Part shown: in pieces, positions 27,809-38,397 of the stretch
Position numbering within the stretch: the first letter of the stretch is position 1
Layout of the letters: the number at the start of each line of letters is the position of its first letter
DNA from: Myxococcales bacterium
GTDB lineage: Bacteria > Myxococcota_A > Polyangia > GCA-2747355
Direction of reading: 5' to 3'
Length of the DNA: 40,938 nucleotides
NCBI GenBank assembly: GCA_020431405.1
Contig: JAGQIK010000039.1
Span: 1-40,938, forward strand
Translations under genes and position numbers: made by a program
The notes under the pieces: model-generated
Databases searched by the model: none
What the model saw: the letters and a program-made list of their open reading frames with translations, nothing else
Told to the model about the DNA's origin: nothing

Positions 27809-27809
27809 A

Positions 27810-27882
<73 letters not shown>

Positions 27883-27897
27883 AAACTGCTTGTCTTC

Positions 27898-33382: not shown

Positions 33383-34186
33383 ATGAGAGCGTGCTTCGCC
33401 GCGGCACTGGCCGCGCTTTCACTCGTGGCGTCAGCAGGGCTGGCGCGCGCCAAGCCCATGCGCACCGTGTTGCACGTGGAGACGCGCAAGCGCTCGCTGC
33501 CGCAGACCAACATCGAGCTCGATCCGAAGGGCGGCGGCTGGTCTGTTTCGCGCTTCGTCGGCAAGGCTGTCTACCTGACACTGTCGGGTCCGCCCGGCGG
33601 CCCGCTCGGCCTCGAGATTCGCGCCCACAGCGCGAAGGGAGCGGACCGCGCGGTGCTCGCGCAGCTCGCACGCCGGCATGACAAAGGCGCCGTGCTCGGC
33701 AAGCTGGTGCGCGTTACCTTCGCCGGCAAGAAGCGCGCGGCGCTTCCTTACGTCAAAGGCAGCCAGGCCGCGCACTCGAGCGGCTGCGTGGTGCTGATCC
33801 GCCGCGCGGGCCGCGGGCGCGGCATCTACGCTGATGCCTATGTGAGCGCCGGAGCGCGCACCCGCCCCTCGTGTAAAGCCGTCTTGGGCAACAAGCGGCT
33901 CGCGCCGACGCTGGCCACGCTGAAGATCGGCTACGCGCACATCCGCGCAGACCTCGCGCTGTTCTGCAAGACAGCCAAGCGCTTGGCGCGCATGAAGCAC
34001 TCGGGCAAGCGGCGCACGATGTTCGCGCGCACGGTCATGGCCAAGATGAAGTCGATCCCGCTGCGCACAGCGTTCGACGCCATCGCCGCGGTGGCCGACA
34101 AGCACAAGTACAAGCTGATGCTCCAGGCGGCCAAGGAGCTTGGTGTCGCCTGGACGTGCCCGGCCTACAAGCGCATCGTCCGCTAG
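33383..34186 (+). CDS. Exported protein of unknown function
   Basis: A 267-residue protein with a signal peptide (MRACFAAALAALSLVASAGLARA) and no lipobox, so it should be soluble in the periplasm or secreted. The mature part is basic and Lys/Arg-rich, with a beta-rich first half (LSGPPGGPLGLEI, KLVRVTFAGKKRAALPYV) and a helical C-terminus with three Cys. GGGGAGGG precedes the ATG. The start TAG at 34184 lies 17 bp from the end of the convergent selenoprotein gene. I recognise no family. Confidence 0.7.
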   Translation: MRACFAAALAALSLVASAGLARAKPMRTVLHVETRKRSLPQTNIELDPKGGGWSVSRFVGKAVYLTLSGPPGGPLGLEIRAHSAKGADRAVLAQLARRHDKGAVLGKLVRVTFAGKKRAALPYVKGSQAAHSSGCVVLIRRAGRGRGIYADAYVSAGARTRPSCKAVLGNKRLAPTLATLKIGYAHIRADLALFCKTAKRLARMKHSGKRRTMFARTVMAKMKSIPLRTAFDAIAAVADKHKYKLMLQAAKELGVAWTCPAYKRIVR

Positions 34187-34203: not shown

Positions 34204-34989
34204 TCAGCGACGTCGTGCGAAGACGTTGACGCCGCTGACGGCGAACTTGCGCGTCACGGCCTCTTTGCTGGTGCCCTCGAACGGGGCGAACGTCTCGACG
34301 ACCTTGGCGCCTTCGAAGCCGCAGCTGGCGAGCGTCTCGAGCAGCTCTGCAACCTGCAGAGCGCCGGCAATTCAGCCGGTCCAGAGATCGATGTCGTTGC
34401 GTGCGCCCTCCGAGAGCGCCACACCGACGACGATGTCGGCGAGCTGCAGCCGACCGCCGGGCGCGAGCACGCGCGCGATCTCGCCGAAGGCTTTGTGCTT
34501 GTCGGTGGTGAGGTTGAGCACCCCGTTGGAGATCACGACGTCGGCGATGCCGTCGTCTACCGGCAGGCTCTCGGCGTCACCGCCGCGCACGTCGACGATC
34601 TCCGCGAGGCCCGCCTGTCGTGCGGCCGTCTGCGCGCGTTCGCGCATCGCCGCGGTCATGTCGACGCCGATGGCGCGCCCCGTGGGGCCGACCGCGCGCG
34701 CGGCGAGCAGCAGGTCCATGCCGGCGCCGCAGCCGACATCCACCACGGTCTCGCCGCGGGCGAGTGCCGCGATGCTGTGCGGGTTGCCGACGCCGGCGAA
34801 CGAGGCCGTGGCGGTGGCGGGAAGCTGCCGCAGCTGCTCGAGGTCGTAGCCGAGGCGCTCGGCGGCGTACTCGGGGCCGCGGTGAAAGTGAAAGTCGCCC
34901 TCGGGGTCGCTGGCGACGCGCTCGTAGATCGTCGAGATCTCCTCGCGCAGCTTGTGGGTGTCGAAGCCGACAGGGCAGCGGGTAGCCAT
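34204..34989 (-). CDS. Selenocysteine-containing SAM-dependent methyltransferase, ArsM-like (in-frame TGA at 34374-34372)
   Basis: A 261-residue protein if TGA at codon 206 is read as selenocysteine. The SAM-binding fold starts with GETVVDVGCGAGMDLLLAA (about 80-96), then AIGVDMT, IADVVISNGVLNL and VLAPGGRLQLADIV, as in ArsM-type methyltransferases. The frame then reads DIDLWTG-TGA-IAGAL, where relatives have '.lw.gCigGAL' with a conserved Cys, and continues 55 more codons in family-like sequence (ELLETLASCGFEGAKVVETF) to the true stop at 34206-34204. An 8-bp stem with a GGU loop follows the TGA. A promoter, TTGAGC-17-TAGCAT, lies 6 nt before the ATG. Stopping at the TGA would remove the C-terminal helix-strand unit. 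The substrate is unknown: the other ArsM Cys residues are not clearly kept. Confidence 0.85.
34344..34362 (-). promoter_or_regulatory. Candidate bacterial SECIS element
   Basis: In the mRNA, GCUCUGCA (34362-34355) pairs perfectly with UGCAGAGC (34351-34344) around a GGU loop. The UGA ends 17 nt before the loop. Bacterial SECIS elements have a 4-16 bp upper stem, a 3-14 nt loop with G in the first two positions, and 16-37 nt between UGA and loop. All three conditions are met. Confidence 0.8.
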
Positions 34990-35043: not shown

Positions 35044-35886
35044 CTAGAAGTTGTAGGCAGCGGCCACGACGAGCGCCGCGCGTCCGCCGGTGGTGTAGAG
35101 CTTGCCAGTGTCGGTGATCGCGATGCGTGCGCCGGCGTCGATGTGCAGGTTGTCGATGGGGAAGAACTGCACGGCTGGCATCACCGAGAGGGCGACCTCG
35201 CCGCCGCTGGGCTCGATCGGCACGCCGATCTGCATCGCCACCTGCACGCCGAACATGCGGTGCAGCCGCGCCGCGCCGAAGATGTCGGCGTTGAAGAGCA
35301 CGATGTCAGTGTTACCGCCGCCGATCAGGGCAAAGGTGCCGAGCGCTGCGCCAAAGGTGGCGGGACCGATATTGCCGGTGGCCGCGAGGCCTGCTTGCAG
35401 CAGCACGAAGTCGCGCTGGATGTCGCCGCTGGTGGTGGGCAGCGTGGTGTTGGCGAAGGCCGAGAGCGCGAACATGCCGCGCGAGCTGCCCAGCAGCTTG
35501 ACCTTGACGTCGAGCCGGATGTTGCCGAGCTCGGTGTCGGCCGCCCCGGCGCCGAAGCTGGTCCAGCCGTGCACCAGGAACGGCAGGTTGATGCCGACCT
35601 CGACGATGTCTGCGAAGGCGTACTGCGCCTGCAAGCCGAGGTTCATCACGTTCAGATCGGCCGTGCCGCGAAGGCCGGTGAGCGTCGCGCGGGCGAAGCC
35701 GAACTGCAGGCCGACGTGGCTGCTCAGCGCCCCGATCTCCACCGGGAAGAGCATCACGTCGAGCGGCTGCGACATAGGGGCCGACGCTGTCTGACCGAGC
35801 GTGACCTGGGCCGACGCGACGCGCGGCGCCGCCACGACGGAGATCACCATCACCACGAATACCGCGGACAAAGCTCGCCTAGTCAT
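35044..35886 (-). CDS. Outer-membrane beta-barrel-like protein
   Basis: A 280-residue protein from ATG 35886, which has GAGGG upstream and gives a signal peptide (MTRRALSAVFVVMVISVVAAPRVASAQ; 35916 would add a poor N-terminus). The mature part is made of alternating amphipathic strands (LGLQAQYAFADIVEVGINLPF, GNIRLDVKVKLLG, VAMQIGVPIEP) and ends in Tyr-Asn-Phe, the aromatic C-terminus recognised by the BAM machinery. It is probably a 10-12 strand barrel of unknown function. The Cys-rich lipoprotein gene upstream on the same strand is 103 bp away. Confidence 0.8.
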   Translation of the reverse strand: MTRRALSAVFVVMVISVVAAPRVASAQVTLGQTASAPMSQPLDVMLFPVEIGALSSHVGLQFGFARATLTGLRGTADLNVMNLGLQAQYAFADIVEVGINLPFLVHGWTSFGAGAADTELGNIRLDVKVKLLGSSRGMFALSAFANTTLPTTSGDIQRDFVLLQAGLAATGNIGPATFGAALGTFALIGGGNTDIVLFNADIFGAARLHRMFGVQVAMQIGVPIEPSGGEVALSVMPAVQFFPIDNLHIDAGARIAITDTGKLYTTGGRAALVVAAAYNF

Positions 35887-35989
35887 AAGCACCCTCGTGC
35901 AGGTCGCGACGGTCACGCGGCTGTGAGGGTGTCAGGGTCGCGGGCGACGGTCTGTGATCGCGAGCAAGCTGTAGGCGATCGGCGATTTG

Positions 35990-37000: not shown

Positions 37001-38278
37001 CTACCCTTCGGCGGCGCGCAGCGCGTGAACCAGATCACGCTTGAGGTCGGAGAGGTGCTCGAGGCCGACGGACATGCGGATCAAGCCCGGCCCGACGCCG
37101 CGCGCTTCGAGCTCGGCGGGCGGGACGTCGGCGTGGGTCATGGTCATGGGGTGCTCGACGAGCGTCTCGGTGCCGCCGAGCGAGACGGCGAGGCGCGCGA
37201 CCTCGAAGCTGTCGAGCACGCGATAGGCCGCTGCCTGGCCGCCTTTGATGTGAAACGCGATCATCGATCCCGACCCTGTGCACTGCTTCTGCCACAGCGC
37301 GTGCTGCGGCTCGTTCGGCGCGAGCAGCCCCGGGTAGCTCACCGATTCGACCATCGGGTGCTCGGCGAGCAGCTGCGCCAGCGCGCGCGCGTTCTTCTGC
37401 TGGCGGCGCATGCGCACGGAGAGCGTCTCGAGCGAGCGCAGCAGCAGCCAGCCGTTGAAAGGCGTGGCGCCCGTGCCGAGGATCGTGCGCATGGAGAGCA
37501 CCTTGACCATCAGCTCGCGCGGCCCGCTGGCGACGCCGGCGATCAGATCGCTGTGGCCGCCGATGAACTTGGTGGCCGAGTAGATCACGATGTCGGCACC
37601 CATCGTGGCCGGCAGCTGAAATAGCGGGCCGAGCAGCGTGTTGTCGACCACGGTGGTGACGGCACCGCCGTGTGCAGCGCGCAGATCGGCGCCGAGCTGA
37701 GCGATGGCTGCGATGTCTGTGTGCACCAGGTTGGGGTTGGCGGGGGTCTCGAGGTACAGCACGCGCACGCGAGCGGCGCCGGCCTGCTCGGCCGCCTCGC
37801 GCATCCTGGCCGGCGCGTCGTCGCCAGCGGCGACGAGCCGTACGTCGATGCCGTACTCGCTGAGGATGTGGCGAAACAGATAGTAGGTGCCGCCGTAGAT
37901 CGGCTCGGTGGAGATCACCACGTCGCCAGGACGCAGCAGCGCCAGCATCGTCGTCGAGATCGCCGCCATGCCGGAGGCGAACGTGGCGCCGAGCTCGCAC
38001 TGATCCCAGGCCGCCATGCGCTCCTCGAAGATCTGCATGTTGGGGTTGTTGAGGCGGCTGTAGATCAGGCCTTGCTGCTCGCCGTCGTCGGGCTCGCGCA
38101 GCCCGTAGGCCAGCTCGAAGAAGCGCTTGCCGTCCTCGGCGCTGGCGAACTGAAACGTCGAGGTCAGAAAGACGGGCGGCTTGACCGCGCCTTCGGAGAG
38201 GCGCGGCTCGTAGCCGTATCCCAGCGCGAGCGTTTCGGGGTTGAAGGGCTTGCCGGTGCTGTGACTGCGCTTGCTCAT
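37001..38278 (-). CDS. Cys/Met metabolism PLP-dependent enzyme (cystathionine gamma-synthase or methionine gamma-lyase type)
   Basis: 425 residues from ATG 38278; an in-frame ATG 38326 would add 16 residues. The fold-type I landmarks are YSRLNNPNMQIFEERMAAWD, FASGMAAISTTMLALL, the PLP-binding Asp in VVDNTLLGPLF, the Schiff-base Lys in YSATKFIGGHSD, the Arg in ILGTGATPFNGWLLLRSLETL and the late VSLGGTETLVEHPMTMTHADV. These fit the MetB/MetC/MegL family, which makes or cleaves C-S bonds in cysteine, homocysteine and methionine metabolism. Which reaction cannot be decided by eye. It is divergent from the KASIII gene, with 272 bp between them. Confidence 0.93.
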   Translation of the reverse strand: MSKRSHSTGKPFNPETLALGYGYEPRLSEGAVKPPVFLTSTFQFASAEDGKRFFELAYGLREPDDGEQQGLIYSRLNNPNMQIFEERMAAWDQCELGATFASGMAAISTTMLALLRPGDVVISTEPIYGGTYYLFRHILSEYGIDVRLVAAGDDAPARMREAAEQAGAARVRVLYLETPANPNLVHTDIAAIAQLGADLRAAHGGAVTTVVDNTLLGPLFQLPATMGADIVIYSATKFIGGHSDLIAGVASGPRELMVKVLSMRTILGTGATPFNGWLLLRSLETLSVRMRRQQKNARALAQLLAEHPMVESVSYPGLLAPNEPQHALWQKQCTGSGSMIAFHIKGGQAAAYRVLDSFEVARLAVSLGGTETLVEHPMTMTHADVPPAELEARGVGPGLIRMSVGLEHLSDLKRDLVHALRAAEG

Positions 38279-38397
38279 GCGTCGACGGTCCGGCGTCGCT
38301 GGCAGTTCGTCAAGGGTAGGACGCATTGTTGCAGTGCGCCATTTTGGCCCGGTTCCCAGTCAGCCAACCTCGTGCATTTATTCTGAACGCCTCACAC

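Follow-up and report, generated by a model that had tools for sequence, protein, structure and literature searches.

Known methyltransferase selenoproteins

In the arsenite methyltransferase CmArsM, the cysteine residues that bind arsenite include Cys72, Cys174, and Cys224 (PMC5552862, PMC7248198), and a canonical ArsM is recognized by the presence of at least three of the four cysteine residues at positions 44, 72, 174, and 224 (PMC5552862). Few of the catalogued selenoproteins are methyltransferases. Among them is an arsenite methyltransferase (NF008823 / PRK11873) with a single selenocysteine (Sec) in a UxxG motif, which the catalogue, with reference to Fomenko et al. 2007, counts among the experimentally verified selenoproteins (PMC13188914). 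Sec-containing ArsM was represented by eight sequences in GOS (PMC2398784) and by 41 in bacteria (PMC5029168). The entries for three fusion selenoproteins, ArsM/AhpD (NF041537), ArsM/DUF2284 (NF041536), and methyltransferase/UXPK-star (NF047649), likewise give the motif UxxG (Haft and Tolstoy 2025, as cited in PMC13188914). Another selenoprotein with a methyltransferase domain, MduS, has the motif CxxU and two Sec residues (PMC13188914). Standard gene calling cuts such genes at the UGA codon, and they are thereby hidden.

A methyltransferase gene with an in-frame TGA

The window, by which we mean the whole 40,938-nucleotide stretch of DNA analyzed here, has on its minus strand a frame that begins with ATG at position 34989, runs for 205 codons to an in-frame TGA, and continues for 55 more codons to a stop, TGA, at 34206-34204. 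With the first UGA read as Sec, the product has 261 residues and is followed by the stop. The protein context at codon 206 is DIDLWTG-TGA-IAGAL; this is the only internal TGA in the gene, and the resulting motif, U-I-A-G, fits UxxG. On rereading the sequence, we found the frame, the TGA at codon 206 and its context, the 55-codon continuation, and the geometry of the hairpin that follows to be exactly as given in the original prediction. The features referred to below are these:

34204..34989, minus strand: predicted Sec-containing ArsM-like methyltransferase gene, full length (translation; relatives; AlphaFold model)
34372..34374, minus strand: proposed Sec codon, the in-frame TGA at codon 206 (TGA or Cys in relatives; alignment to 4fr0)
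34207..34371, minus strand: extension of 55 codons translated past the TGA (final two strands of the methyltransferase core)
34344..34362, minus strand: predicted bacterial SECIS hairpin, GCUCUGCA-GGU-UGCAGAGC (covariation; weaker or absent in Cys homologs; synonymous constraint)
34876..34893, minus strand: conserved FHFHRG segment, residues 33-38, near the place of CmArsM Cys44 (alignments)

The 261-residue product matched Pfam methyltransferase domains and over its whole length was 47-67% identical to 13 Sec- or Cys-containing relatives. An AlphaFold model of the protein had a pLDDT of 92.2 and a pTM of 0.91, and in this model the extension past the TGA would supply two strands of the core sheet, E225-234 and E252-260. 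The extension was 31-57% identical in amino acids to those of 11 Sec relatives over 54-55 residues, and its inclusion raised the NF008823 score from 178.5 to 211.2 bits. At the GC content of the window, an open frame that runs 55 codons past a TGA is unremarkable. The third codon positions beyond the TGA were just moderately more variable than the others, and because this difference is not decisive, we relied on amino acid conservation, stem covariation, and synonymous constraint.

Comparison with ArsM and with catalogued selenoproteins

The TGA had been predicted to stand where relatives have a conserved Cys, equivalent to an arsenic-binding Cys of ArsM. Both parts of this prediction agree with the alignments: homologs have Sec or Cys at this position, and in the alignment to 4fr0, Sec206 falls on Cys224 of CmArsM, the Cys of YGEC-LGGAL. 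The doubt that had been expressed over the remaining ArsM cysteine residues proved well founded, as Cys174 of CmArsM (in VISNC) corresponds to Gly156 of the window protein and Cys72 to Val67. The FHFHRG segment was placed against Cys44 from alignment ranges only, residue 32 of the model being paired with residue 39 of 6cx6_B at the start of the structural alignment. As judged from the sequence, Sec206 would be the sole conserved soft ligand position in the window protein. Among the sequences tabulated for the Cys174 position, a set without L108 and L113, Gly occupies it in every Sec form, and all proteins with Cys174 also have Cys at 224. An additional cysteine, Cys5 of an N-terminal MAxxCP motif, is nearly invariant in a 14-row alignment, being absent in L025 and replaced by Ser in L061 and L096.

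The solved folds closest to the model are arsenic methyltransferases, and the best match was ArsM with As(III) (6cx6; Z 26.3, 29% identity). The window protein thus has in common with canonical ArsM (CmArsM, 4fr0/6cx6; CrArsM, 5evj; human AS3MT, 8xt7) the ArsM fold with its SAM-binding methyltransferase domain and, as Sec, the residue at the Cys224 position. It differs in having Val67 for Cys72, Gly156 for Cys174, and FHFH near the place of Cys44, so that of the four cysteine positions by which a canonical ArsM is recognized, 224 alone is kept. A separate canonical ArsM, with cysteine residues in CC, GCGN, SNC, and CACLAGA, is encoded in the same genome (L098, G000:C518:9500-13000).

The nearest named models were those of the three fusion selenoproteins and PRK11873. 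With the catalogued Sec-ArsM, the window protein shares an ArsM-like methyltransferase, one Sec, and the motif UxxG (here UIAG) at the Cys224 position, but its 211.2 bits with NF008823 lie under the curated cut-off of 263, and the equivalents of Cys174, Cys72, and Cys44 are gone. The catalogued protein was compared by its description and may share the same Cys losses, in which case the window protein would simply be another member. The methyltransferase part of the three fusions, for which UxxG is also catalogued, aligns from residue 10 to residues 233-237 with 194-219 bits. The window protein, in contrast, ends after 261 residues and one domain, lacking a second Sec-bearing domain, and its scores fell far below the cut-offs of the fusion models (218.6 versus 510 bits for NF041537, 193.7 versus 575 bits for NF041536, and 200.2 versus 460 bits for NF047649). 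As it lacks the cysteine set and scores under both the NF008823 and the fusion cut-offs, we set the window protein apart from canonical ArsM and from the fusions.

Placement with MduS, which had been suggested at the outset, was abandoned. MduS also has a methyltransferase domain with Sec, but it was rejected on motif (UIAG versus CxxU) and on the number of Sec residues (one versus two), and none of the NCBIfam matches shown was to a model named MduS. The description of the protein as a new selenoprotein holds for the gene and its branch; it does not hold for the idea, a Sec-ArsM with UxxG having been catalogued already. The Sec site is therefore known, and novelty is confined to the window gene and the branch to which it belongs.

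The hairpin downstream of the TGA

The rules for bacterial SECIS elements call for a loop of 3-9 nt with G in the first two positions, a distance of 16-37 nt from the UGA, and 4-16 pairs (PMC13188914). The window hairpin agrees with all of these, starting 10 nt past the TGA with eight pairs, a GGU loop, and 17 nt between UGA and loop. The energy of its stem is -11.7 kcal/mol. By itself, this hairpin is within chance expectation: a G-loop hairpin of about equal energy or better was found for 34 of the 763 TGA triplets of the GC-rich window, and a single-sequence fold of 63 nt was uninformative (z = -0.13).

The hairpin had been singled out for checking, and across relatives its stem was found to be both conserved and covarying. 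In 24 Sec sequences, 97.4% of the stem cells were paired, and double changes were present at two of the eight stem pairs, with exchanges of G-C/C-G and of U-A/C-G/A-U. The stem covariation in this set was 0.168, as compared to 0.037 when shuffled and 0.000-0.084 with slid partners; it was also computed on an earlier set of 12 sequences. The Ala codon at U+4 was GCT in 24 of 24 sequences, and that at U+8 was GCA in all 22 having Ala there; elsewhere in the same genes, these two codons account for 8.4% and 10.4%, respectively, of the Ala codons. These codon counts carry less weight through shared ancestry, though the sequences span several phyla. The hairpin was much weaker or absent in seven Cys homologs, and the divergent Sec subclades L087, L088, L089, and L113 had other stem sequences with the same architecture (L113 as judged by eye). 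An Rfam scan of the region returned just sub-threshold chance matches, and a promoter and terminator scan was empty.

Conservation of the TGA and the selenocysteine machinery

TGA was present at the same codon in 28 Sec sequences from at least five phyla, the TGA forms coming from Myxococcota, Acidobacteriota, Latescibacterota, Thermomicrobiota, and Pseudomonadota. A GTDB genome scan yielded 14 relatives, of which eight share the TGA codon in its DIDLWTG-U-IAGAL context and the rest have Cys, and whole-genome searches revealed more Sec forms in Myxococcota. In a sample of 396 Acidobacteriota genomes, exactly one TGA was found in 14 of the 14 orthologs. The source genome (11.2 Mb) is a draft assembly of 733 contigs, and a TGA made by sequencing or assembly error might be imagined; this explanation is already contradicted by the occurrence of the same codon at the same place in independent assemblies, and we regard it as vanishingly improbable.

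Cys was found at the Sec position in ten sequences within the same Gly174 group. On the tree of this group, Sec and Cys forms are interleaved and sequences of different phyla intermingle, a pattern suggestive of horizontal transfer and of one or more exchanges between Sec and Cys. Of 16 genomes that encode Sec forms, 15 had a selA gene (the exception, with no selA match, being G406), as compared to 3 of the 10 genomes encoding Cys forms from the Gly174 group (Fisher p 0.0013, uncorrected for kinship). The source genome, whose sel genes had been named as a check on the prediction, has tRNA-Sec (68.9 bits; called by ARAGORN too), selA (553 bits), selB (353 bits), and selD (359 bits), all above family cut-offs.

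Because conservation across phyla extends to the TGA, its stem, and the protein sequence past it, and because the Sec machinery is present in the genome, we are nearly certain that the window gene is a real selenoprotein gene whose UGA is read as Sec. The beyond-chance signal is the retention of these three elements across phyla and not the window alone. Actual insertion of Sec at codon 206 is predicted from these comparisons. The reading of the TGA as an ordinary stop, or as a recent nonsense mutation, would end the protein at residue 205. Hairpins of this kind being common in the GC-rich window and open frames of 55 codons not rare, the locus alone would accommodate that reading, but it leaves the conservation across phyla unaccounted for, and the truncation would cost the fold two core strands. 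An ordinary stop or nonsense mutation is already strongly contradicted, and we consider it very improbable.

Several further observations were made in the course of these searches. The selD gene of the source genome (L031, G000:C59:2976-3902) is itself a selenoprotein gene, its in-frame TGA, in QCAG-U-ASKL, being the second one seen in this organism. The L087, L089, L088, and L113 sequences represent further divergent Sec-containing ArsM-like subclades with their own SECIS-like hairpins, and the contexts across them are WFA-U-IAGAKEGG, WSR-U-IAGAV, and WTA-U-IAGGLPCEGW. In one homolog, L099 (G354:C75), the Sec position is occupied by Gly, encoded by GGC, within WTSG-IAGAL; its genome has selA. 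A record titled as a Bordetella parapertussis MAG (L021) has a Sec-ArsM gene nearest that of a Burkholderiales MAG, and the species label looks doubtful. In the plasmid collection, all homologs were below 60% identity, and the annotation of those listed was that of ordinary methyltransferases. A search with NF041537 of 400 genomes from the phylum to which G409 belongs gave no match, and as no control gave one either, this absence carries no weight.

Gene neighborhood and proposed function

The window gene appears to stand alone, as no ArsR or exporter gene was found adjoining it, and the flanking genes at 35044-35916 (minus) and 33383-34186 (plus) had no Pfam match. In relatives, an ArsR-rhodanese regulator was found near the gene in L024, L092, and L093. 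Two of these loci, L024 and L093, also encode a rhodanese-metallo-beta-lactamase protein, for which L020 gave a partial match, and an MFS protein, which shows 58% identity across phyla and is partially matched in L103. The gene immediately upstream in L094 and L102 encodes a DsrE-like protein with 61% identity between phyla. The ArsR-rhodanese fusion gave a sub-threshold match to the sulfite-sensing BigR, and the rhodanese-metallo-beta-lactamase protein gave one to the sulfur transferase/dioxygenase Blh. Taken together, these neighbors suggest, for several relatives, a role in handling toxic soft species, either metalloid or reactive sulfur/selenium. The ArsR-rhodanese, rhodanese-metallo-beta-lactamase, and MFS exporter genes form an operon-like set beside the Sec gene that is common to phyla (L024:884-3972 and L093:562-4212). 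Downstream of the Sec gene in a Burkholderiales genome (L026:4804-6281) are genes for a DUF1326 protein and for a membrane protein, PpoB2, of the copper chaperone family.

We propose that the product is a class I SAM-dependent methyltransferase and that SelB and tRNA-Sec would decode its UGA codon 206 as Sec under the direction of the hairpin starting 10 nt downstream. The selenolate of Sec206, at the place of ArsM Cys224, would lie beside the methyl group of SAM, where it would most likely bind a soft toxic substrate and hold it for methylation. The likeliest substrate may be a trivalent arsenical or a similar metalloid species. The usual multi-thiolate arsenite pocket cannot form, because the equivalents of Cys174, Cys72, and Cys44 are Gly, Val, and the FHFH segment. 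Sec would then serve as the only soft protein ligand, perhaps with help from His34/His36 or from a small thiol attached to the metalloid. We infer the metalloid substrate and the ligand role of Sec206 from the fold match to ArsM with As(III) and from the ArsR-rhodanese regulator and MFS exporter beside relatives. The sub-cut-off score with the NF008823 arsenite methyltransferase model and the absence of any ArsR or exporter gene found beside the window gene argue against a metalloid, the neighbors found elsewhere fit reactive sulfur equally well, and arsenite methylation is already covered in this genome by the canonical four-Cys ArsM. We would give the whole reading, in which UGA-206 is decoded as Sec, Sec binds the acceptor, and the substrate is a metalloid, an even chance.

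The same selenoprotein might instead act on a reactive sulfur or selenium species, which we consider possible but doubtful. Sec206 could conceivably react with sulfide, persulfide, or selenide to form a selenopersulfide-like adduct that is then methylated from SAM, and methanethiol, methylselenol, or methyl disulfide are tentatively envisaged as the products, to be exported. The loss of the arsenite thiolate set, the presence of a four-Cys ArsM in the genome, the recurrence of BigR-like and Blh-like neighbors (both through sub-threshold matches), and the DsrE-like protein immediately upstream in two phyla are in keeping with such an acceptor. The nearest solved folds, however, are arsenic methyltransferases, and the neighbor sets occur in some loci only and are absent from the window.

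An improbable explanation is that Sec206 is real but has a redox or regulatory function, for example as a redox switch on the methyltransferase, with no binding of an acceptor. Many selenoproteins are redox enzymes (PMC13188914), and the nearly invariant Cys5 of MAxxCP might pair with Sec, but Cys5 is missing in L025 and is Ser in L061 and L096, and the position of Sec206 is that of an arsenic ligand in ArsM (PMC5552862).

We tentatively suggest that the window gene belongs to a widespread ArsM-like branch in which a single Sec is the acceptor ligand in place of a multi-thiol pocket, and which methylates a species other than arsenite. That acceptor could perhaps be a reactive sulfur/selenium species or another metalloid, and in some genomes the enzyme would belong to an operon that includes ArsR-rhodanese, rhodanese/metallo-beta-lactamase, and MFS exporter genes. 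With Sec as the one remaining soft ligand, and with natural Sec, Cys, and Gly (L099) versions in various phyla, the role of selenium in methyl transfer becomes directly testable.

Elsewhere in the window, a PLP-dependent enzyme of Cys/Met metabolism is encoded on the same strand approximately 2 kb upstream of the gene, two genes off (37001-38326, minus), and the sole tRNA is a tRNA-Asn(gtt) at 27809-27883 (minus).
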